In this document: one piece after another, positions 52,371 to 64,000 of the stretch | Layout: each line of letters begins with the position of its first letter | How positions within the stretch are numbered: the stretch's first letter is position 1 | Source of the DNA: Candidatus Methanoperedens sp. | GTDB lineage: Archaea; Halobacteriota; Methanosarcinia; Methanosarcinales; Methanoperedenaceae | Length of the DNA: 64,000 nucleotides | NCBI GenBank assembly: GCA_023249105.1 | Contig: JAHFDG010000012.1 | Coordinates: forward strand, 1 to 64,000 | Reading direction: 5' to 3' | Notes under the pieces: model-generated | What the model was told of the DNA's origin: nothing | Database searches by the model: none | What the model saw: only the letters and a program-made list of their open reading frames with translations | Position numbers and translations under genes: made by a program

Positions 52371-52922
52371 TTATTTCCCACAGCAAGTTGAATTTTTGCT
52401 TTTAGAAGAACTGCACGTAGATTCTTTCCTTGATGCCTTTTCATCAGTTGACGCACTATTTTTAATATGCCCTGCCACTACAGCCTCAGCCACAGTGCGG
52501 GCACATTCCCCGAGTTCTTCCTCTGAAACTTCATCTATCCCGAAAGGAAGGGAAGCTTCATAGAGCGTATCAGCCTGGACTATTTCAGGGCACAGGCCGG
52601 GCAATACGCCTTTCATCATCCTTGAAGAGCAGGATATAAAGCATCCTTCAATGGCAATCGTTTTGTTTGCCCTTCTGACCAGGTTTCTTTGCCCCGTATC
52701 CTTCGTAAAGGCGCCGCCGAGACAGATGCGTACAGTGTTTTCGCGGGCAAGCCGGTGGGCTACGAGGTTTGCCGCTATTCTTGCAACCTCGCCTTTCGCG
52801 CATGCTCCCTCGCATGCCATGACTGCAATCCTGGGAGGGTTTGTGGAATGTTTCTCTGCATATTCCTCGCATGCGGGGCAGGTTTTTTCTACCTTTTCGA
52901 TTTTGATTGTTTCATAATTCAT
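52371..52922 (-). CDS. DGC-domain putative zinc-binding protein
   Basis: The 183-residue protein starts MNYETIKIEKVEKTCPACEEYAEKH, a Cys pair, followed by IAVMACEGACAKGEVARIAANLVAHRLA (about 32-60), FTKDTGQRNLVRRA, and AIEGCFISCSSRMMKG (about 90). It ends in a Cys/Ser-rich tail. The conserved CEGAC and the DGC-type GCFISC features mark the DGC family, called putative zinc-binding and often found near arsenic or metal genes. It stands first in the arsenic and mercury region, divergent from an ArsR-type gene. Function unproven. Confidence 0.75.
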   Translation of the reverse strand: MNYETIKIEKVEKTCPACEEYAEKHSTNPPRIAVMACEGACAKGEVARIAANLVAHRLARENTVRICLGGAFTKDTGQRNLVRRANKTIAIEGCFISCSSRMMKGVLPGLCPEIVQADTLYEASLPFGIDEVSEEELGECARTVAEAVVAGHIKNSASTDEKASRKESTCSSSKSKNSTCCGK

Positions 52923-53037: not shown

Positions 53038-53400
53038 ATGCAAATAAGAAGATGTTGCCCGGCTGATTGCGCAATCAAAAGTGATTGGGAAACTGAACTT
53101 CAAGCGGAAAATGATTTGTTGGAATCAAATAAATTTCATAAAACAAGTACAATATTAAAACTTCTGGGTAATCCATCAAGATTAAAAATAACTCTTCTGC
53201 TTTTAAACAGAGACCACTGCGTTTGTGAAATAATTTACATATTAAATGAAAAACAAAATCTGGTTTCATCTAATCTGGGTATATTAAAAAGATTCAAAAT
53301 AATAGACTCCTACTATCGTTCTAAGCATAAATATTATAAACTGAATGATAATGCGATTGGTATAATCAGATTAATAAAAGAAAGTTTGATTGATAAATGA
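53038..53400 (+). CDS. arsR: ArsR/SmtB-family regulator (copy 1)
   Basis: The 120-residue protein has a winged helix-turn-helix: LKLLGNPSRLKITLLLLNRDHCVCEIIYILNEKQNLVSSNLGILKRFKIIDSYYR. CVCE in the recognition region (about 60) is the classic ArsR metalloid-binding position, and the N-terminus adds CCPADC. It divides divergently from the DGC gene (116 bases), so the spacer should contain its operator. Likely senses As(III) or a soft metal ion. Confidence 0.85.
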   Translation: MQIRRCCPADCAIKSDWETELQAENDLLESNKFHKTSTILKLLGNPSRLKITLLLLNRDHCVCEIIYILNEKQNLVSSNLGILKRFKIIDSYYRSKHKYYKLNDNAIGIIRLIKESLIDK

Positions 53401-53783: not shown

Positions 53784-53844
53784 AGTAGAATAATGAACTA
53801 TCAAAGCTGCGAATGAATAAAATATTGTATTCGGGGAGGAACAT

Positions 53845-54561
53845 GTGGCCTTACTTAAGATTAAAAATATAACATATAGAGTACCAGAAAAGGAGATATT
53901 TTCAAATCTTTCTCTTGTCGTCGAAAAAGAAGAAGTCCACGCAATTCTCGGTAAGAATGGAACAGGAAAAAGTACACTTGCTTATCTGATAATGGGATGT
54001 GAGGGTTATGTCCCGGATTCGGGAAAGATACTGTTTGAAGGAAAAGTCATCAATGGTCTTAAGCTCCATGAAAGAGCGCAGCTCGGAATAACTCTTGCAT
54101 GGCAGGAACCGGTGAGGTTTGAGGGTATTTCAGTCAGGGATTTCCTCATACTGAAGAATAAAGAAGCTGATCCCTCGCCTTATCTTGAAATGGTAGGACT
54201 TTTACCTGAACTTTATCTTGGCAGGATAATGGATAAAACCCTCAGTGGCGGCGAAAGAAAAAGGATAGAACTTGCCTCCATTGTAGCGCTTCAACCAAAA
54301 TTTGCAATCCTCGACGAGCCCGACTCAGGCATAGATATGCTCTCGATACAGGATATATTAAATGTTATCGCAACTTTAAAGAAAAACGGGGCGTCGGTGC
54401 TTTTAATTACCCACAGGGAGGAAATCGCGAAAATTGCGGACAGGGCTTCCCAGATATGCAACGGCAAAATAGTATGCACAGGCGCTCCTGATAACGTTGC
54501 AGAGTATTATAAAACACGAAAATGCGAGATATGCAGCAGCGAGGAATGTGTATATGTCTGA
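53845..54561 (+). CDS. sufC: Fe-S cluster assembly ATPase SufC
   Basis: SufC is the ABC-type ATPase of the SUF scaffold. The 238-residue product starts at GTG 53845. It shows Walker A GKNGTGKS (about 33), Q-loop LAWQEP, signature LSGGERKRIELAS (about 133) and Walker B ILDEPDSGIDML, all typical. The end overlaps the SufB/D gene by eight bases. A two-gene sufC-sufBD set is usual for archaea. Confidence 0.95.
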   Translation: MALLKIKNITYRVPEKEIFSNLSLVVEKEEVHAILGKNGTGKSTLAYLIMGCEGYVPDSGKILFEGKVINGLKLHERAQLGITLAWQEPVRFEGISVRDFLILKNKEADPSPYLEMVGLLPELYLGRIMDKTLSGGERKRIELASIVALQPKFAILDEPDSGIDMLSIQDILNVIATLKKNGASVLLITHREEIAKIADRASQICNGKIVCTGAPDNVAEYYKTRKCEICSSEECVYV

Positions 54562-55489
54562 ACTTGAAGATTTGATGAAAGTATTTGGAGAATCCGGCGG
54601 TGATAAAAGCATTCTCGGAATACATGATATAGCTCACCTCGTTGCAAGCGGTCATAAAATATTAAGCATGAGGGCAGTTGAGGGAATAGAGGTAAAGGCA
54701 GAAGAAACCGCTACCGGAATTGATGCAAATATCAGGATTCTTGAAGGAATAATCCTAAAACATCCGGTACATATTTGCTTTGGCGTACTGCACAAAAAGG
54801 GGATACAGGAAATAAAGATGAACGTCCAACTTGAAAAAGATTCTTCTGCAGAATTTATCGCGCACTGCATATTCCCGAAAGCGGAAAAAGTACGGCATAT
54901 AATGGATGCAGTCGTTGAGATTGGTGAAAATTCGAAGATGAAATATTCTGAGATACATTATCATGGAATCTCCGGGGGAATAGAAGTTATCCCAAAAGCA
55001 GTTGTCAAGGTTGGTAAAAACGGCAGGTACTTAACGGATTTTTCACTGACCACCGGAAGGGTCGGGAAACTTGGTATAGATTATACCGTAGAAGTGGGTG
55101 AAAATGCAGTAACCGAGTTAATTGTGAGGGTGTTCGGTCATGGCAATGATGAGATAAAGATACAGGAAAAGGTCGTTCTTAAAGGTGAAAATTCTAAGGG
55201 TCTCATAAAAACAAGGGTTGCCATCGAAGACAAATCCCAGGCTGAAATAACAGGCATCACCGAAGGCAACGCAAAAGGTGCCAGAGGTCATGTTGACTGT
55301 TTGGAGATAATAAAGGACGGCGCCGTTGGAAAAGCAATACCCATTGTGAGCGTTTCACATCCCCTGGCGAAAGTAACGCATGAAGCAGCCATCGGGAGCG
55401 TGGATAAAAAACAGCTTGAAACACTCATGGCACATCGGCTTACACCAGAGGAAGCTGTGGATATAATTGTGAGGGGTATATTGAAATAA
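54554..55489 (+). CDS. SufB/SufD-family Fe-S assembly scaffold
   Basis: The 311-residue protein begins MSELEDLMKVFGESGGDK and carries the beta-helix core of SufB/SufD: IHICFG..., YSEIHYHGISGGIEVIPKAVVKVG, RGHVDCLEIIKDGAVGKAIPIVSVSHPLAKVTHEAAIGSVDKKQLETLMAHRLTPEEAVDIIVRGIL. The end sequence HEAAIGSVDKKQLETLMARGL-type is diagnostic. It is shorter than bacterial SufB (about 470), typical for archaea with one scaffold subunit. It forms a complex with SufC and supplies [4Fe-4S] clusters for the many Fe-S enzymes here. Confidence 0.93.
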   Translation: MSELEDLMKVFGESGGDKSILGIHDIAHLVASGHKILSMRAVEGIEVKAEETATGIDANIRILEGIILKHPVHICFGVLHKKGIQEIKMNVQLEKDSSAEFIAHCIFPKAEKVRHIMDAVVEIGENSKMKYSEIHYHGISGGIEVIPKAVVKVGKNGRYLTDFSLTTGRVGKLGIDYTVEVGENAVTELIVRVFGHGNDEIKIQEKVVLKGENSKGLIKTRVAIEDKSQAEITGITEGNAKGARGHVDCLEIIKDGAVGKAIPIVSVSHPLAKVTHEAAIGSVDKKQLETLMAHRLTPEEAVDIIVRGILK

Positions 55490-55531
55490 AATGTGCTAAA
55501 TATTAAAGGAAATAAGTAAAATGCAAGATTT

Positions 55532-55906
55532 ATGATTAATCAATGTTTATGTGAATCCAAAACCGCAAAACTATGTTGCCCGGGCGATGAAAAACTTCGG
55601 AATGAATGGCTTTTTAGTCTTGAAAACGAACACGAACCATTAAGGCAGACATCAAAGGAAATTGCAAAGAAATTGAAGCTCCTCTCAAATTCCAACCGCC
55701 TGGAAATTCTGTTGATGCTTGAGCAGCGGGAACACTGTATGGATGAGATTGCACGAAAACTAAATTCTAAAAAACCGGCTATTTCCTATCACCTGTCACT
55801 CCTGAAAAAACACGGTATGGTTTGCGTAAAAAAACGCTCCCGGTTCACCTTTTATTCGCTTTCTCACAGCGGTAAGAAGGCTATCGCGGCTTTTGAAATG
55901 ATATAA
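55532..55906 (+). CDS. arsR: ArsR/SmtB-family regulator (copy 2)
   Basis: The 124-residue protein has an N-terminal Cys-rich stretch (CLCESKTAKLCCPGDE). The winged helix then reads LKLLSNSNRLEILLMLEQREHCMDEIARKLNSKKPAISYHLSLLKKHGMVCVKKR. It lies directly before the arsenite transporter gene and 42 bases after the suf scaffold. It should regulate acr3; the several Cys could bind As(III). Confidence 0.88.
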   Translation: MINQCLCESKTAKLCCPGDEKLRNEWLFSLENEHEPLRQTSKEIAKKLKLLSNSNRLEILLMLEQREHCMDEIARKLNSKKPAISYHLSLLKKHGMVCVKKRSRFTFYSLSHSGKKAIAAFEMI

Positions 55907-55968: not shown

Positions 55969-57006
55969 ATGGATGAAAAACTCTCGTGGATTAGCAAATA
56001 TCTGACTTTCTGGATTCTTCTTGCCATGGCAGGCGGAATAATTGCCGGCGCTGTCTATCCGGAGATAGCCGCCATACTTGACGCTGTCCGCATCGAACAG
56101 GTTTCGCTTCCTATCGCTATCGGGCTTATCTGGATGATGTATCCGCCCCTTGCCGGCGTGAAATACGAGGAACTCTCAAAAATGAGGAAGCAGGGGAAAG
56201 CTTTGACCGCATCAATTATCCAGAACTGGATTATCGGTCCCGTTCTCATGTTCGCGCTTGCATGGCTCTTCCTCCCGGACATGCCCGAATACCGCATTGG
56301 ATTGATACTGATAGGTCTTGCCAGATGCATTGCCATGGTGCTTGTCTGGAACCAGCTTGCTGGCGGGGATAACGACCTGTGTGCTGTTCTTGTAGCTATG
56401 AATTCCCTCTTCCAGGTTGCGCTTTATTCGGTGCTCGCGTATGTATTCATCACAGTACTGTCCACATGGATTGGCGGTGCGGGAGCCGGGGCAATCGTAA
56501 ATATATCCATATGGCAGGTAGCAAAGGCAGTTTTCATATATCTGGGCATTCCTTTTATTGCAGGCATAATAACGCGGTCAGTTCTGTTAAAAAAGAAAGG
56601 GAAAACGTGGTATGATGATGTGTTCATGAAAAAGCTCGGCCCGACAGCGCTTATAGGACTGCTATTCACAATCATAGTCATGTTCTCTCTGAAAGGCGAA
56701 AAGCTCGTCGAGCTCCCACTTGATGTTTTCAGGATAGCAATACCGCTGCTTGCTTATTTCTCCATAATGTTCGCCTTATCCTTTTTTATGTCTTACAGGC
56801 TGGGATTTTCCTATGACCAATCCACGACGCTTGCTTTCACTGCGACAAGCAACAATTTTGAACTTGCAATCGCTGTAGCTATCGCAGTGTTCGGCATCGG
56901 CTCAGGCGAGGCATTTGCTGCTGTGGTAGGTCCGCTCATTGAAGTGCCCGTAATGCTGGGATTGGTGCATGTTGCAAGGAGAGCAAAGGTGATGTGGTTT
57001 GAATAA
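55969..57006 (+). CDS. acr3: Arsenite efflux transporter Acr3
   Basis: The 345-residue, ten-helix protein is of the bile acid/arsenite permease superfamily. It has the functional Cys in [22 protein letters not shown] (about residue 112) and the conserved Glu in [16 protein letters not shown] (about 302). Acr3 pumps out As(OH)3. It is next to ArsR and converges on the hgcAB genes. It supports arsenic exposure as a selective force for this region. Confidence 0.95.
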
Positions 57007-57026: not shown

Positions 57027-57040
57027 CCGCAGATGAACGC
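57027..57040 (+). repeat. Short copy of the cgcagatgaa repeat
   Basis: CCGCAGATGAACGC matches the family at 23072-23101. It lies between acr3 and the convergent hgcB stop. Confidence 0.5.
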
Positions 57041-57053
57041 ATAGAGGGATACA

Positions 57054-57377
57054 TTATGATTCCTTTTTTCCTATCTGCAGAATCTCAGGTTTAGAGTCAC
57101 AAGAACTACCGCAACCGCATGTTGCTTCCTTTTGTCCTCTTACAGCTGCCCATATCATTGCAGATGCACATCCAACGCCGCTGTCAACTTTGATGGCTTT
57201 TGTGGGACAGTTGAGCTGACAGGCTCCACATTCCATGCATGCTTTTGGGTTCACTAATTGTGCTACCTTTCCACTCGTATTGAATACACCATGTGGACAT
57301 ACTTTGCTGCACATCCCACAGTTAATACACAATCTCGGATCATATTTCAGGGTGTTTGAATCATACGAATTGAACAT
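57054..57377 (-). CDS. hgcB: Mercury methylation ferredoxin HgcB
   Basis: HgcB supplies low-potential electrons to HgcA and may handle Hg. The 107-residue product begins MFNSYDSNTLKYDPRLC, with two [4Fe-4S] motifs CINCGMCSKVCPHGVF (about 17) and CMECGACQLNCPTKAI (about 48) in a canonical 2x[4Fe-4S] arrangement. C-terminal cysteines VGCASAMIW and TCGCGSSC follow, as in the family. It overlaps the hgcA stop (TGATG), and GGAGGAATG lies just upstream. The identification is very strong together with hgcA. Confidence 0.95.
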   Translation of the reverse strand: MFNSYDSNTLKYDPRLCINCGMCSKVCPHGVFNTSGKVAQLVNPKACMECGACQLNCPTKAIKVDSGVGCASAMIWAAVRGQKEATCGCGSSCDSKPEILQIGKKES

Positions 57378-58390
57378 CACATTCCTCCAGATATTTTCAG
57401 TAATGACAACACAATTACCAGGATAATTCCGATTCCGAACATCCATGCCATTTTTGGAACATAGGTAAATATTTCGCGCTTAACCCCTATCACCGAGGTA
57501 AAAGTTGTAGAACCTGTAAAGTTCAATGCCAAAAAGGCAGTTACAGGCGGCATGGTCAGCATATAAGTCAATGCCCAACCGGAACGCAACCACAAGGCTT
57601 CACTCATCATGCCATAAAACGCGTTCATGGCAAACGATAGCGCCATCAGTCCACCTATAATGAATCCCTTTGTGCTAAAATCTGTTGTTGGGATCCATGG
57701 CAACAGGATTGGAAATAAAACCACTCCGGAAAGGATGACTGTGATGGCAGCCGCTGCCGCCGTGTAGCTCCCCACAAGTGACAGGATCACGGATACGATT
57801 AACATGGGTATAAGGATATAGTTCATCTCAACAGGAATAAGGACAATGCGGTCAAGAAGGGTAAAGCGTACGCGGCGCATTTCTTCTGTAGCCTGATGCG
57901 TTTTAAGATACTCCGGTAGATCAGAAGCTCTCACTGGCCCGAACTCGAGTTTGAATCCAGAACGCGCCCTGACCTCTTGGGCAGATACTCCCGTCGCGCC
58001 CAGTTGGGGAACGATAAGTATTCTGTGGCTGACTACATCATGAAGTTTTACTGTCTCGATGCGACGCACGATCTCATCAGTCCCAAATGTACCTTTCCCG
58101 GCAGCGCACCATACATTAATGCCTCTGGTGTCAAGAACGAGAATATAGGCATCAATGCCAGACAATGCTGATCTTAAGGCATCAAAGCTGAGGGTATAAT
58201 TTGCGCTGGCAAAGACTGGTGAATCTTTTGCAGGTTTTCCCAGGGCGTATAGCCCGGGTGCTATTAAATGCCCGTTTCGATTTACTCCAAGACGAGCCAT
58301 AAAATGATCCATTCTATTGGCGAACGTTATGTCGCCGGAAGTGGATTTGATATCAATTTCTTTCGTTATTGTTCCAGATAAATTTTTCAA
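57377..58390 (-). CDS. hgcA: Mercury methylation corrinoid protein HgcA
   Basis: HgcA is the corrinoid methyltransferase that makes methylmercury. It has a soluble corrinoid domain (about 1-180) with the diagnostic cap-helix motif INVWCAAGKG (Cys near 95), followed by the expected five membrane helices. TTG 58390 is preferred as start because GGAGGAG lies about six bases before it; GTG 58396 is possible. hgcB follows by overlap; the AbrB-like gene precedes it by 58 bases. HgcA's usual methyl donor is methyl-THF or a related pterin, so in this archaeon it could draw on the methane-oxidation methyl pool (inference). Confidence 0.96.
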   Translation of the reverse strand: MKNLSGTITKEIDIKSTSGDITFANRMDHFMARLGVNRNGHLIAPGLYALGKPAKDSPVFASANYTLSFDALRSALSGIDAYILVLDTRGINVWCAAGKGTFGTDEIVRRIETVKLHDVVSHRILIVPQLGATGVSAQEVRARSGFKLEFGPVRASDLPEYLKTHQATEEMRRVRFTLLDRIVLIPVEMNYILIPMLIVSVILSLVGSYTAAAAAITVILSGVVLFPILLPWIPTTDFSTKGFIIGGLMALSFAMNAFYGMMSEALWLRSGWALTYMLTMPPVTAFLALNFTGSTTFTSVIGVKREIFTYVPKMAWMFGIGIILVIVLSLLKISGGM

Positions 58391-58448
58391 TGTCACTCCT
58401 CCTCATTAATGTAAACTTTACAGCAAAGTTCAAGAAATTGGTTTATAT

Positions 58449-58724
58449 TTATTTTTCGAATATATCCTTCATCACCGGTCCAAGCATGCCCTTTACAAGC
58501 TCTGCGAGCTTCTCGACCTTTATCAAAGATATACAGCATACTTCACCGTCTTTTTCCCAGCTTACAACAGCCAGCTTATCGCCGGATTGAATTTTTGCTT
58601 TTTCTCTTATCTCTTTGGGAAGCACCGTTTGCCCCCTATCATCTACGGTTATTACAGATTCTACTTTGCAGCAACCCATTTCTGAAGGGGCACAGCATGA
58701 TTTGTTTTCATCTTTCTTTGCCAT
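58449..58724 (-). CDS. AbrB-like HgcAB-associated protein (HgcC-type)
   Basis: The 91-residue protein begins MAKKDENKSCCAPSEMGCCKVESVITVDDRGQTVLPKEIREKAKIQSGDKLAVV, an N-terminal Cys-rich segment (SCCAP, GCCK) followed by an AbrB/MazE-type swapped-hairpin DNA-binding fold and a helical tail. AbrB-like proteins of this type are annotated as HgcAB-associated (HgcC). It is the first gene of hgcC-hgcA-hgcB. The Cys motifs suggest sensing of Hg or a related thiophile. Start 58724 is preferred to 58751 since the conserved sequence and a GGATGAT site begin there. Confidence 0.85.
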   Translation of the reverse strand: MAKKDENKSCCAPSEMGCCKVESVITVDDRGQTVLPKEIREKAKIQSGDKLAVVSWEKDGEVCCISLIKVEKLAELVKGMLGPVMKDIFEK

Positions 58725-58755
58725 TTTATCATCCTGGTGGCAAATATGCATTCTG

Positions 58756-58785
58756 AATATTTATACTTTTTCTGATAAATCAGAA
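58756..58785 (-). promoter_or_regulatory. Promoter and palindromic operator of the hgc operon
   Basis: TTCTGAT-AA-ATCAGAA (58770-58785) is a near-perfect 16-bp palindrome. On the minus strand TATAAATA near 58756-58765 gives a TATA box about 35 bases before the start, with the palindrome just upstream. An identical palindrome sits at 60548-60563 ahead of arsM. Binding by the ArsR or AbrB-like protein is inferred. Confidence 0.6.
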
Positions 58786-58885
58786 TAAGCGGAAAAAAGA
58801 ATGGGTTTGAAAACCGGCAAAATTCCTTAGAAAAGTTGTGTCCCAGATTTGACAGGGTTTAAGCGTAATCCGAGTTCTATCGACC

Positions 58886-59461
58886 CTATCTTAGCCATTT
58901 CACTTCAGGCTCGTTTCTTATTAGCATTGCGGTTTCACCACGCGGATATCCGAATATCAGCGGAGCAACCGCTTTATAGCCTGAAGGCGCACCAAGCTCT
59001 TTCAATATCTTTTCATCCATGAGAGCAGGCATCGCAAACCCAATCCAGCAGCTGCCGATACCTATTGAATGCGCTGCAAGCATCATGTTCTGAGCAGCCA
59101 TCGCGCAGTCCCAATCTGCGGTAAGGGATTTTTTATTTCCAAGGATTATTACAAGCAAAGGAGCATTATAGAACAGGCTTGTACCCTTTGTTTTGAGAAA
59201 AGAAATGAAACCAGGTGCTTTCCTGGGATCATCGACCATCTGTTCGGCAAGCGGGATCATCGCCTTTTTACCGTTTTCAGAGAGCTTTTGAATCACTTCT
59301 TTGTTCTTTATCACCAAAAAGCTCCAAGGCTGCATATTCATACCAGATGGGGCGTATCTTGCGCAGTCTATCAGGAATTTTATTTCCTCATCCGGCACCG
59401 GATCTTCCTTATAGTTCCTTATGCTTCGTCTTGTTTTGATGATTTCGATTATGTCTTTCAT
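58886..59461 (-). CDS. Nitroreductase-family flavoprotein
   Basis: The 191-residue FMN enzyme has the family's motifs TRRSIRNYKEDPVPDEEIKFLIDCARYAPSGMNMQPWSFLVI, the central NKKSLTADWDCAMAAQNMMLAAHSIGIGSCWIGF and APLIFGYPRGE. Substrates of this archaeal group are unknown. It lies 31 bases after arsM on the same strand, so it may belong to the arsM unit. It could reduce oxidised organics or serve a redox step for thiols, but no direct evidence. Confidence 0.9.
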   Translation of the reverse strand: MKDIIEIIKTRRSIRNYKEDPVPDEEIKFLIDCARYAPSGMNMQPWSFLVIKNKEVIQKLSENGKKAMIPLAEQMVDDPRKAPGFISFLKTKGTSLFYNAPLLVIILGNKKSLTADWDCAMAAQNMMLAAHSIGIGSCWIGFAMPALMDEKILKELGAPSGYKAVAPLIFGYPRGETAMLIRNEPEVKWLR

Positions 59462-59492
59462 AATAACTCACCCATATTTAGCTCATTCCCGG

Positions 59493-60320
59493 TTATCCTA
59501 TTTTTCTTCCCTGTACCCTTATGCTAATGATAGACTTCCCGATTTCTTCAACTTCTTCTATCGGTATCTTAAGTTTCTCAATGACCTCCTTTCCGACCGG
59601 GTCATTTGAAATAAATTCTACAGGAAAAGTCTTTTCATCAAGTACTTTTATCTCACCGAAACCTGCGTTCTTTATTGTTTTTAAGTATTCATCCTTCATT
59701 GCTGCACCTGCAATGCAACCGACATAAGCATGGATTGAATCCCGGACATTTTCGGGAAGTTCCTTTAACAGCACGATATCTGATATCATCATCCTGCCGC
59801 CCGGTTTGAGCACCCTGAATGCTTCTTTAAAGACCCTGCTTTTATCGGGTGCAAGGTTTATGACGCAGTTTGAGATCACAACATCGACTGAATTATCAGC
59901 CGCGGGCAAATTCTCAATTTCCCCGAGCCTGAACTCCACGTTCGAATAATTCCCTTTCCTTGCATTTTCCCTTGCCCGATCCAGCATCTGGGGTGTCATA
60001 TCTACTCCTATGACTTTCCCTTCTTTCCCTACCCTTTTGGCTGCAAGGAAGCAGTCAAACCCGGCGCCTGAGCCAAGATCAAGCACTGTTTCCCCTTCTT
60101 TTAACGACGCCAAAGCCAGCGGATTCCCGCATCCGAGACCCAGGTTTGCACCTTCTGCCACTGATCTAATCTCCTCATCGCCATATCCTATTCTTTTGCT
60201 GATGACCTCTGCCCTGTTCCCGCCGCAGCAGGAAGGTGCAGGAGCGTAACTTGAGCCTTTATCCTTGGCTATACTACCGTATCTTTCCCGTACTACTGTT
60301 TTTATTTCCTTTTGTTTCAT
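59493..60320 (-). CDS. arsM: Arsenite S-adenosylmethionine methyltransferase
   Basis: ArsM methylates As(III). The 275-residue protein has the N-terminal Cys pair APSCCGGNRAEV (about 30), SAM motif VLDLGSGAGFDCFLAAKRVG (about 75), DVVISNCVINLAPDKSRV (about 147) and HAYVGCIAGA (about 195), thus the Cys set needed to bind arsenic. The start overlaps the truncated AbrB-like gene by four bases, and GGAGG in that gene's end supplies the ribosome site. Together with Acr3 and ArsR it defines an arsenic detoxification island. Confidence 0.96.
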   Translation of the reverse strand: MKQKEIKTVVRERYGSIAKDKGSSYAPAPSCCGGNRAEVISKRIGYGDEEIRSVAEGANLGLGCGNPLALASLKEGETVLDLGSGAGFDCFLAAKRVGKEGKVIGVDMTPQMLDRARENARKGNYSNVEFRLGEIENLPAADNSVDVVISNCVINLAPDKSRVFKEAFRVLKPGGRMMISDIVLLKELPENVRDSIHAYVGCIAGAAMKDEYLKTIKNAGFGEIKVLDEKTFPVEFISNDPVGKEVIEKLKIPIEEVEEIGKSIISIRVQGRKIG

Positions 60321-60502
60321 TCTGTTTCCTCCTTGTATTTATCCATCGCCAGTTTATCACCAGCGTGAATTTTTCCTATTTCTTTGCTCTCTTTTGGAAG
60401 CACTGTCTGCCCCCTCTCATTTACAGTTTTTACAGACTCTACTTTGCAGCAGCCCATATTTGCAGGGGCGCAGCAGGATTTGTTTTCATCTTTCTTTGCC
60501 AT
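60317..60502 (-). pseudogene. Truncated copy of the AbrB-like HgcC gene, now a leader peptide for arsM
   Basis: The 61-residue frame repeats the first 50 residues of the AbrB-like protein at 58449-58724: MAKKDENKSCCAP and GCCKVES are identical, then VNERGQTVLPKESKEIGK diverges. It stops after GDKLAMDKYKEETE, losing the rest of the fold and the helical tail. The end contains AAGGAGGAAACAGAATGA, the arsM ribosome site and overlapping start. It carries the same operator upstream. It may act as a Cys-rich leader peptide; its loss of the fold makes DNA binding unlikely. Confidence 0.7.
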
Positions 60503-60533: not shown

Positions 60534-60563
60534 CAATATTTAAACTTTTCTGATAAATCAGAA
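60534..60563 (-). promoter_or_regulatory. Promoter and palindromic operator of the arsM unit
   Basis: TTCTGAT-AA-ATCAGAA (60548-60563) is identical to the palindrome at 58770-58785. On the minus strand TTTAAATATTG (60534-60544) is the TATA element. Spacing to the start resembles the hgc promoter, so the whole promoter and gene start were duplicated. Confidence 0.6.
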
Positions 60564-60755: not shown

Positions 60756-63161
60756 TTACTCATAAGCCAGAACCTCCTGCACCGGTAATCGCGCTTCACG
60801 CCAGGCAGGGTAGGCACTTGCGATAATTCCAATCAGGATAACCAATACAAACCATCCCGCCATTGCTAATGGTGGAAAGACATGATCCAGATAGGTCTGG
60901 ATAAAAATATCCCCTGCGAAGTCCCCTATAATCACGCTGAGGGGCCACGCAATTACGATGGCAGCCAGCCAGCTAAGGATGCATATAACAATTCCCTCGA
61001 CGACCACGATCTGCAGCACATCATCGGTCAAAGCGCCTATCGCCCGCATAATACCGAATTCGCGCCTTCGTTCCATCACGTTAATACTCATTGTGGAAGC
61101 CAGTGCCAATCCACCGACCAAAGCGACCAATGCCGCCATTGCCATCAGGAACATCTGGATGACCACCAGGTGGTCCCTTAGCTCCTGAACCCTTTCGGTA
61201 CTCGGATTGACAGAAATACGGTGCAATCCGGCAGTATCAAACTGCTGTTCAAGCTGCCCTGCCACTGTCTTCAATGCGGCATCACTGTGCTGGTCTGTCT
61301 TGATACGGATATCAGCGGTATTACCTTCCATACCTGTAATGCCAGCCAGATAGTCAAGGTTGACATAAGCCGAAGCCGCAATATTTTGCCCGCGTTTGCG
61401 TGCGCCCACTTCACGGACGGCGCCAACAACTATCCATTCCATTTCCTTATTACCCGTTTTAAACATTATCCGGTCTCCGACTTTGGCGTCAGATGCCTCC
61501 AGCAGTTCATGGTTGATTACCAGTGCATTCGTATCGTTTGAATTAAGCCAGCGCCCCTCAATAACCGGGAAAGCGATCATTTCCGTCGCAGGCGGTACCC
61601 CGGTGAGAGTAAAGCTAATGCCATCAGTTCCATCTGAGTTTTTGCGTACAGCCAAAACTTGCTCCCAGCTCTCCATATTTGATATACCCGGCACAGCAAG
61701 AACCGTTTTTTCTACATATGCCACGGGGTAGGGCTGGTTAAACTTCACTTCAATGTCATAATGGCGGGCACTCATTGCTACATCAATAGTGTTTGACCAC
61801 GAGGCACTGACATTGATCGCACTCATGAACGTTGCGCCTCCAACTGCCAGGATTCCGATCGTCAACAACAGGCGTGTCCTGTGCCTAAAAGTATTACGCA
61901 GGGATAGCAACAGCGGACGACCCATGCCCCGCATGCGGGACACAAGTGTGTCAATACGGTTTGTACCAAATTGTCCTTTGCTGCCAATCCCATAATCGCT
62001 GATAGCCTGCCGGACGGTTATCCGGCTGCCTGTAAATACCGGAAAGGCAGCAGCAAGCAGCGGCACAGACAGCCCGATGAGAATCTGGACAACAAATACC
62101 CAGTGCGGGATAAAGTCACTGGTGATGTTGAAGTTCAATATTTTCGCCGTGAATGCCGCAAATGCCCGGCCGGCCCACATGCCGGCAGGAATACCAATAA
62201 GAAGTCCTGCAACGCCAAGCAGCAAAACAGATCCGAAATAAAGCCCTGCTATCTGGTAAGTCCTTGCTCCAATGACCTTCATCACTCCTATTTGCCTGGT
62301 CTGCTGCGCAAGCAAAGCAGATATTGTACTTGCGACAAGGATACTACTGAGAACCAAGGCGAGAACGCCAAACGCCTCCAATAAGAACAATAGCGAATCC
62401 ATTTGGTCAGAATGCGGATGTTTACCCGCATTAGGAATTTCCATCCGCGAAACTTTGTATCCGCGTTCCTCCATAACATCCCTGACCTGATAAGCGATTT
62501 TGGTGATTTGAGGGATATCTGCCTTTTGCGCCGTAACAATACGCAATTCATTCAGGGCACGTGTCTCGTTGAGCCATTCCAGAGTATTGAGGGTGATGTA
62601 GCCATAGGCGATATTATCTACCGCGCCTGGTGATTGCCCCGGGTCATGGACAATCCCGCTCACGCGCAGTTCGTGATTCTGACCATTATCTGGAGTCTGG
62701 ATTATTACCATGTCGCCGATCTGCTTTTTGATAAGCGGCAGCGCTGAACGTTCGATGAGTATTTCACGGTCAGCGGGAGGCCAATCTCCCTGTTCGGGTT
62801 TAAATGTTGACACGCGTAAATTGTTGAAGTCATCGATCACAAAGAGTAAGAGCCTTCGCCAATCACCCGGTCCGACCAGGATGCGAGCCGTGACAACACG
62901 ACGTGGCTCAGCATTTGCAACCCCGGGGAGACTTTCGACAGCAGCAGCCAGCTTATCGTCGGCATTGTCCGTGTACAGGATTGCCGAGGCGGGATTTGTA
63001 CCAAGGAAATTTGCGTTTATTTCGTGGGTTAGAATAGAATAGCCGGTCAGGACTGTGCCGACCCCGAAAATTCCGATAGCGATAGCCAGTACTGCCAGCA
63101 GAGTACGCGCCTTGTTCAACCACAGATCGCGTACGACTTTGCGCCAGCGTACACTAATCAT
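60756..63161 (-). CDS. MacB/FtsX-type ABC transporter permease, two-unit
   Basis: The 801-residue protein has two FtsX units: N-terminal helix (ARTLLAVLAIAIGIFGVGTVLTG), a large extracellular domain, and three helices, then a repeat with RNTFRHRTRLLLTIGILAVGGATF and a second extracellular domain and terminal helices. Such MacB-type proteins move or handle lipids, peptides or exported factors. The start 63161 overlaps the ATPase stop by eight bases; a longer start at 63176 is possible. It forms an ABC unit with the next gene. Confidence 0.9.
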   Translation of the reverse strand: MISVRWRKVVRDLWLNKARTLLAVLAIAIGIFGVGTVLTGYSILTHEINANFLGTNPASAILYTDNADDKLAAAVESLPGVANAEPRRVVTARILVGPGDWRRLLLFVIDDFNNLRVSTFKPEQGDWPPADREILIERSALPLIKKQIGDMVIIQTPDNGQNHELRVSGIVHDPGQSPGAVDNIAYGYITLNTLEWLNETRALNELRIVTAQKADIPQITKIAYQVRDVMEERGYKVSRMEIPNAGKHPHSDQMDSLLFLLEAFGVLALVLSSILVASTISALLAQQTRQIGVMKVIGARTYQIAGLYFGSVLLLGVAGLLIGIPAGMWAGRAFAAFTAKILNFNITSDFIPHWVFVVQILIGLSVPLLAAAFPVFTGSRITVRQAISDYGIGSKGQFGTNRIDTLVSRMRGMGRPLLLSLRNTFRHRTRLLLTIGILAVGGATFMSAINVSASWSNTIDVAMSARHYDIEVKFNQPYPVAYVEKTVLAVPGISNMESWEQVLAVRKNSDGTDGISFTLTGVPPATEMIAFPVIEGRWLNSNDTNALVINHELLEASDAKVGDRIMFKTGNKEMEWIVVGAVREVGARKRGQNIAASAYVNLDYLAGITGMEGNTADIRIKTDQHSDAALKTVAGQLEQQFDTAGLHRISVNPSTERVQELRDHLVVIQMFLMAMAALVALVGGLALASTMSINVMERRREFGIMRAIGALTDDVLQIVVVEGIVICILSWLAAIVIAWPLSVIIGDFAGDIFIQTYLDHVFPPLAMAGWFVLVILIGIIASAYPAWREARLPVQEVLAYE

Positions 63162-63852
63162 AGAGACCACTTCCATTGGCAACCTTCCCGTCCGCTAACT
63201 TCACCACGCTTGAAACCCATGTCGTGATGTCACGTTCATGCGTCACCATTACAATGGTTTTGCCCGATGCTGCAAGGCTCTTAAAAAGCTGTAAAATAGC
63301 CTCTGAAGTATGTGAATCGAGATTGCCGGTCGGCTCATCCGCCAGCAGCAATGGAGGATCGTTTGCCAGCGCACGTGCAATAGCAGCCCGTTGTTGCTGA
63401 CCGCCGGAAAGCAACGCGGGCAGCTTATCAGCCTGCTCACTGATACCGACCTGTTCCAGAACTTGCGTCCCGGCTTTTAAATATTCCTCCTTCTTCCTGC
63501 CGAGCGCCATTGCAGGCAGATAGACATTTTCAAGTGCAGTAAGTTCAGGCAGAAGTGCATACTCCTGGAAGACGTAACCGAATTTCAAAAGACGGAATCT
63601 TGCCTTCTCGGATTCAGATATATCTGAAATGTTCTTTCCACCGAAAACGATCTCTCCGGACGTAGGTGCATCGAGCAATCCGAGCTGGTGCAGCAGCGTT
63701 GATTTCCCGCTTCCGCTCTTGCCCATTATGGCAGCAAATTCACCTCGTTTGATGTCCAGCGTGACGTTATTCAGAGCCCTTACCTTCACTTCGCCCATAG
63801 CATAGATCCGGGAAAGGTTTTTTATTTCAATTATTTTTTCATCTCCGGTCAT
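63154..63852 (-). CDS. MacB/LolD-type ABC ATPase
   Basis: The 232-residue ATPase has Walker A GKSGSGKST (about 39), Q-loop YVFQEYALLPELTALENV, signature LSGGQQQRAAIARAL (about 137) and Walker B LLLADEPTGNLDS, typical of the MacB/LolD family. The ATG at 63852 has GGGGTGA upstream. It overlaps the permease by eight bases and starts one base after the stop of a second permease gene at the edge. Confidence 0.95.
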   Translation of the reverse strand: MTGDEKIIEIKNLSRIYAMGEVKVRALNNVTLDIKRGEFAAIMGKSGSGKSTLLHQLGLLDAPTSGEIVFGGKNISDISESEKARFRLLKFGYVFQEYALLPELTALENVYLPAMALGRKKEEYLKAGTQVLEQVGISEQADKLPALLSGGQQQRAAIARALANDPPLLLADEPTGNLDSHTSEAILQLFKSLAASGKTIVMVTHERDITTWVSSVVKLADGKVANGSGLYD

Positions 63853-63853
63853 T

Positions 63854-64000
63854 TCATTCACCCCATATCGCATCTATTATCGTTTTACGGACAGCCATCC
63901 ATGAAGGTATAAACCCGGCAGCAAGCGCAGCTATGATCAGACTTATTGCATTCATCGAAACTCTTTCAGGAAGAATCAGTAATGAAGCCAGTCCGATAGG
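63854..64000 (-). CDS. C-terminus of a second FtsX-like permease (partial)
   Basis: Reading in from the window end, 48 residues end in AALAAGFIPSWMAVRKTIIDAIWGE, the last membrane helix and cytoplasmic tail of an FtsX-type permease. It ends one base before the ATPase start and belongs to the same operon. Confidence 0.85.
   Translation of the reverse strand, partial: PIGLASLLILPERVSMNAISLIIAALAAGFIPSWMAVRKTIIDAIWGE

Follow-up and report, generated by a model that had tools for sequence, protein, structure and literature searches.

Mercury-methylation genes of Candidatus Methanoperedens lie in an arsenic island and share a putative operator with arsM

The known product of HgcAB is a neurotoxin, and the reason microbes keep the hgcAB genes is an open question. 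The stretch of DNA analysed here (64,000 nucleotides, hereafter the window) raises that question in a methane-oxidising archaeon, with hgcA, hgcB and hgcC lying among arsenic genes, and with it the question of what controls the three genes in such a setting. Parts of the picture are already known, namely the hgcAB pair, ars genes near hgcAB (PMC7438021; Gionfriddo 2023 as cited in PMC10349881), ArsR control of hgcAB in the bacterium ND132 (Gionfriddo 2023, in the account given by PMC10349881) and an AbrB-like gene before archaeal hgcA. In addition, hgcA assigned to Methanoperedenaceae was reported together with transcripts from rice paddies in February 2026, in a study that excluded the group from further analysis (PMC12997803), which answers a doubt raised in an earlier note on this DNA as to whether a link to hgc genes had been described for the group. 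The host family is the same in that study and here, and we add genome context, regulon and phylogeny. New as far as the literature searched shows, and with priority uncertain, are the operator common to the hgc and arsM units, the position of HgcC before arsenic genes more often than before hgcAB across archaeal families, and interleaved hgc-arsM operons together with sites with and without hgcAB. Among the papers listed by a literature search with incomplete coverage, none treated HgcC as an arsenic-operon regulator, and only PMC10349881 joined AbrB with acr3, arsM and archaea.

Host, genes and enzyme

A 137-kb contig from a metagenome-type assembly (134 contigs, 3.28 Mb, 99.7% complete) contains the window. 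An assembly of this kind gives some ground to suspect misbinning, with the hgc genes on a contig from a non-methanotroph, an outcome that the earlier note had named as one that would count against its ANME-2d-like methanotroph host. However, the same contig carries mcrA, whose product has as its best PDB match 9qr1, the MCR of Methanoperedens BLZ2. McrA places the host in ANME-2d, comparison with named Methanoperedens genomes places it in the same genus, and HgcA in those named genomes is 71–85% identical to that of the window. Because mcrA shares the contig with the hgc genes and genomes of the same genus group are identical, in the loci compared, to records named Candidatus Methanoperedens, the probability of misbinning is negligible, and the host is Candidatus Methanoperedens (ANME-2d), as the note had supposed. 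Viral contigs were searched for a viral or extrachromosomal carrier of hgcA and gave nothing beyond a short 41% match.

HgcA, HgcB and HgcC were called with NCBIfam equivalog models and their curated cut-offs, which all three genes exceed. On the reverse strand lie hgcC (58449..58724; AbrB/SpoVT-type regulator, 91 aa) with 118 bits against a cut-off of 70 for NF040962, hgcA (57377..58390; corrinoid/membrane protein, 337 aa) with 421 bits against 275 for NF040863, and hgcB (57054..57377; dicluster ferredoxin, 107 aa) with 108.6 bits against 99 for NF040864. The earlier note was thus right about the three genes, the AbrB-like hgcC alongside hgcA-hgcB included, and about where they lie; 57054-58724 spans hgcB to hgcC, and the functional unit extends to about 60563. 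The start of hgcA is probably the TTG, chosen because GGAGGAG lies upstream, with GTG at 58396 as the alternative. The ATG start of hgcB overlaps the stop codon of hgcA by one base (its last base), and hgcB follows hgcA in 13 of 13 family loci.

The cap-helix motif of HgcA is INVWCAAGK (Cys95 in the numbering of this protein), and its NVWCAAGK core is invariant among 41 aligned HgcA. The AlphaFold model (pLDDT 85.8) has an alpha/beta corrinoid domain and five long C-terminal helices, predicted at residues 178-206, 209-232, 238-260, 266-289 and 300-333. Its top Foldseek match in the PDB is the published HgcAB model 9a0b (E 5e-19), followed by CFeSP, and sequence comparison likewise puts HgcA nearest the 9a0b HgcAB model and corrinoid iron-sulfur proteins. 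These results bear out the motif and the five membrane helices described in the earlier note. HgcB has two CxxCxxCxxxCP motifs, a conserved Cys70 and at least one C-terminal Cys; the two ferredoxin motifs that the note described therefore stand, but its terminal Cys pairs do not, as the tail reads CGCGSSC (Cys-x-Cys plus one Cys) and the vicinal CC of ND132 is absent. In ND132 HgcB either tail Cys alone sufficed, and tails vary among orthologues (PMC7305189). Judged by profile, motif and fold, hgcA and hgcB are a genuine HgcAB mercury-methylation pair, with an enzyme activity predicted from homology. The pair shares with the HgcAB of ND132 and of methanogens the NVWCAAGK core, five membrane helices, a dicluster HgcB with conserved Cys and adjacent genes, and it differs from that of ND132 in the HgcB tail and in its putative co-regulation with arsM by HgcC.

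By homology, HgcB would reduce the HgcA corrinoid to Co(I), SAM would methylate it (as published work also suggests), and the methyl group would pass to Hg(II) bound by HgcB cysteines. The earlier note had drawn the methyl group straight from the methyl-pterin pool of methane oxidation; by that account the methyl-tetrahydromethanopterin pool of reverse methanogenesis would feed HgcAB, and methane carbon would go directly to mercury. HgcA is homologous to CFeSP, which takes a pterin-bound methyl, and the genome has CdhD-type proteins as well as mcrA. However, for purified HgcAB of ND132, a bacterium and not an archaeon, the methyl donor was SAM, and methyl-THF did not serve (PMC11588087); for this reason the direct passage is disfavoured and seems to us quite unlikely. 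By analogy, SAM would be the methyl source in Methanoperedens HgcAB as well, and methane carbon could reach HgcA indirectly via methionine and SAM. A search for AdoMet synthetase (PF01941) found three genes (G000:C114, C45, C24); methionine synthase PF01717 had no match in the genome of the window and likewise none in the control, Methanosarcina acetivorans.

Arsenic island and putative operator

On the forward strand, a gene for an ArsR/SmtB-family regulator (55532..55906; NF033788, 65.5 bits against a cut-off of 55) lies upstream of acr3 for an arsenite efflux pump (55969..57006; TIGR00832, 449 against 283), which is convergent with the hgc unit. On the reverse strand, arsM for an arsenite S-adenosylmethionine methyltransferase (59493..60320; NF008823, 367 against 263) is separated from the hgc unit by a nitroreductase-family gene (58886..59461; PF00881, 132 bits), a type of gene linked by synteny to hgcA in four Methanoperedens loci. 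The arsR, acr3 and arsM genes that the earlier note saw around the hgc genes are thus supported by profile scores over the cut-offs; a second ArsR-type gene lies at 53038. The arsenic setting of the hgc genes is a conserved and probably functional link. The island is adjoined by a gene for a DGC-domain protein with a Cys-rich C-terminus (52371-52922), and upstream of arsM lie an ABC transporter ATPase and an FtsX/MacB-like permease (60756-63873), a pair that also occurs near hgcAB in Methanoperedens LC 1 (L035).

Upstream of hgcC, a putative operator/promoter of hgcC-hgcA-hgcB (58751..58785, reverse strand) is conserved in relatives. It consists of a putative 18-bp palindromic operator, TTCTGATTTATCAGAAAA (58768-58785), beside a TATA box, TATAAATA (58758-58765), and of a further half-site, TTCAGAA (58751-58757). 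A second copy of TTCTGATTTATCAGAAAA (60546..60563, reverse strand) heads a truncated hgcC of 61 aa (60317..60502, reverse strand; NF040962 positions 1-36, 41 bits), a decayed copy directly before arsM; over 168 nt, it and hgcC form a direct repeat with 85% identity. The pattern TTCTGANNNATCAGAWAA occurs exactly twice in the whole 3.28-Mb genome, and because both copies head these units, hgcC-hgcA-hgcB and (hgcC remnant)-arsM-nitroreductase have a common operator. With up to one mismatch allowed, 0.25 matches would be expected by chance in the window, and 2 exact ones were found. Across genomes, a strict pattern places similar operators upstream of hgcC at 16 of 23 sites linked to hgcA, mostly in methanogens, and at 14 of 24 linked to arsM, compared with about 0 in shuffled sequence; the counts include related genomes and are incompletely independent. 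Many acr3-linked HgcC sites are without the pattern, so the operator could differ between loci or be bound by a different factor. A 105-aa reading frame opposite hgcC, conserved and at first taken for an unknown gene, is the antisense frame of hgcC.

HgcC itself carries Cys pairs, as CC..CC close to the N-terminus and as VCC in its C-terminal half. We consider it likely, on balance, that a genuine HgcAB is here under an AbrB-type repressor, HgcC, that is released by arsenite, and that it belongs to one regulon with arsM. The hgcC-hgcA-hgcB genes would be expressed as one unit under HgcC, whose most likely binding site is the palindrome TTCTGA-N4-TCAGAA, next to the TATA box or overlapping it. 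Binding of a thiophilic element, with arsenite as the most likely one, to the conserved Cys pairs of HgcC would release the repressor. Since the same operator also heads arsM, arsenic methylation and HgcAB would form one regulon. Operator binding and arsenite sensing are suggested by where the elements lie, how well they are conserved and which genes accompany them. Arsenic-type control would be shared with ND132, as the latter is described in PMC10349881, and ars genes beside hgcAB are shared with cases known before. In contrast to the ArsR of ND132, Methanoperedens mostly has an unrelated AbrB-type regulator with a common operator; an ArsR-type gene stands directly before hgcA in place of HgcC in G028, G032 and G052.

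HgcC in related genomes and across the phylum

Of 31 Methanoperedens genomes, 29 have an HgcC above the cut-off, whereas 10 have hgcA; in 26 of those 29, with the remnant copy of the window counted, HgcC heads arsM, mostly without hgcA. It is linked to hgcAB at the window locus and in 7 of 29 genomes in the genus. In three genomes (G012, G017, G019) a single operator heads hgcC-arsM-(nitroreductase)-hgcA-hgcB. In a tree from a short alignment, the hgcA-linked HgcC copies of Methanoperedens are nested among arsM-linked ones (20-row clade, 96/91) and stand apart from methanogen HgcC (97/99). G017 and G026 also carry a gene for a 221-aa class I methyltransferase (L119:5565-6230 and L121:16800-17465; below the ArsM and CpaM cut-offs), which follows hgcC and precedes arsM or hgcA; in G026 it alone separates hgcC from hgcA, and in G017 it is additional to arsM.

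Two comparisons show sites without hgcAB. In the hgcA-less genome G029, hgcC-arsM lies next to acr3-arsR in an island that is collinear with that of the window (82–91% identity) and lacks exactly 57030..59489, a block that by blastn and junction comparison holds the nitroreductase gene, operator, hgcC, hgcA and hgcB. G018 and G019 are 91% identical through hgcC-arsM-nitroreductase, and in G018 only about twelve codons from the start of hgcA remain before the sequence diverges, a stub that points to loss of hgcA there. On the evidence of these sites, hgcAB is a labile add-on to an operon for arsenic methylation. A SufC/SufB-type pair in the window (53793-55510), between the two ArsR-type genes, is missing from the collinear island of G029 (L254) and is a second insertion or deletion in the same arsenic island.

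In an even sample of 394 phylum genomes, HgcC was over the cut-off in 74, and we analysed 70 HgcC loci outside Methanoperedenaceae, Methanosarcinaceae and a second family, f3 (G040-G056). Of the genes tested, arsM comes next after HgcC in 27 loci, acr3 in 19 and hgcA in 18, and 6 loci have none of the three. The arsM and acr3 representatives that were checked exceed their NCBIfam cut-offs. The C-terminal-half Cys-Cys pair is kept in 69 of the 70 homologues. The protein is of the same family, and in the same position before archaeal hgcA, as NF040962 HgcC and the PrlF/AbrB-like gene of PMC10349881, but its place is more often ahead of arsM or acr3 than ahead of hgcA, with a common operator, and the name ‘HgcAB-associated’ suits only a minority of the HgcC loci examined. 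The most likely role of HgcC in archaea is to regulate arsenic operons, hgcAB being one of the modules under its control. In family f9 (G241, G267, G298 and others; L336, L337, L338), HgcC lies directly before acr3 at 18 loci, mostly without the operator pattern.

Could HgcC instead sense mercury, or soft metals in general, in a heavy-metal island where the arsenic genes are only incidental? Both Hg(II) and As(III) are bound by Cys pairs, and in methanogens hgcAB is the immediate target, directly after HgcC in 9 of 9 Methanosarcinaceae loci. However, HgcC heads arsM without hgcA in most Methanoperedens and is followed by arsM or acr3 in 46 of 70 loci elsewhere, and we regard a mercury sensor as unlikely; merB, searched for with PF03243, had no match in the genome and likewise none in any control genome. 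Much less probable still is a toxin-antitoxin module in which the AbrB-like gene encodes the antitoxin and controls hgcAB by coincidence. Weak MazE/PrlF profile matches of HgcC and the toxin-antitoxin-like regulator proposed for archaeal methylators (PMC10349881) speak for it, but no toxin gene was recognised beside hgcC at the window locus, and arsM, acr3 or hgcA is the next gene in 64 of 70 loci elsewhere.

Since the regulator before the mercury genes more often heads arsenic genes in related archaea, mercury methylation in archaea seems to belong to a response to arsenic, and a regulator and operator that hgcAB shares with arsM and acr3 across many archaeal families point to an arsenic-related role of hgcAB. 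A wider proposal, that in methanogenic and methanotrophic archaea HgcC is an arsenic-sensing AbrB-type repressor, that hgcAB is one module of an arsenic stress regulon, that the native role of hgcAB concerns arsenic or a related thiophilic element and that methylmercury is a side product, is tentative and in our estimate falls short of an even chance. The archaeal link between HgcC and arsenic was found independently of the bacterial ArsR link. Arsenic in paddies and sediments could raise the methylmercury potential of methane-cycling archaea, and a widespread methane-oxidising genus is added to the genomes with the mercury-methylation pathway.

Distribution and ancestry of hgcA

Over the cut-off, hgcA is found in 13 of 34 family genomes (10 of 31 in the genus and 3 of 3 outside it) and in seven genomes of f3 (G040, G041, G048, G050, G051, G052 and G054). 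The McrA of f3 is nearest to ANME-2d and is not ANME-2c, and by elimination the family is probably ANME-2a/b. Several f3 genomes have a nitroreductase-like gene after hgcB.

The HgcA phylogeny that the earlier note had proposed as a check places the window HgcA inside the HgcA clade and apart from methanogens. Methanoperedenaceae and f3, except for the single genome G033, form one clade (98/94) that sits among Chloroflexota and other bacterial HgcA, and methanogen HgcA form a separate clade (97/92). Unlike methanogen HgcAB, Methanoperedens HgcA groups with the Chloroflexota type, and a methanogen-type ancestry common with Methanosarcinaceae is rejected by the AU test (p = 0.002). Clustering of euryarchaeotal and Chloroflexi hgcA has been noted before (PMC7438021).

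On the McrA tree the presence of hgcA is patchy and at least 4 changes are forced. The nearest relative of the window is G019 by McrA, and G026 and G028 by HgcA, a conflict that makes strict vertical inheritance within the genus unlikely, although mcrA could be misplaced and the conflict is not proof. Together, patchy presence and the disagreement between HgcA and McrA suggest movement and loss of hgcA. One further HgcA match over the cut-off (G124:C47:3669-4343) has a single in-frame TGA and is either a broken gene or a possible case of selenocysteine.
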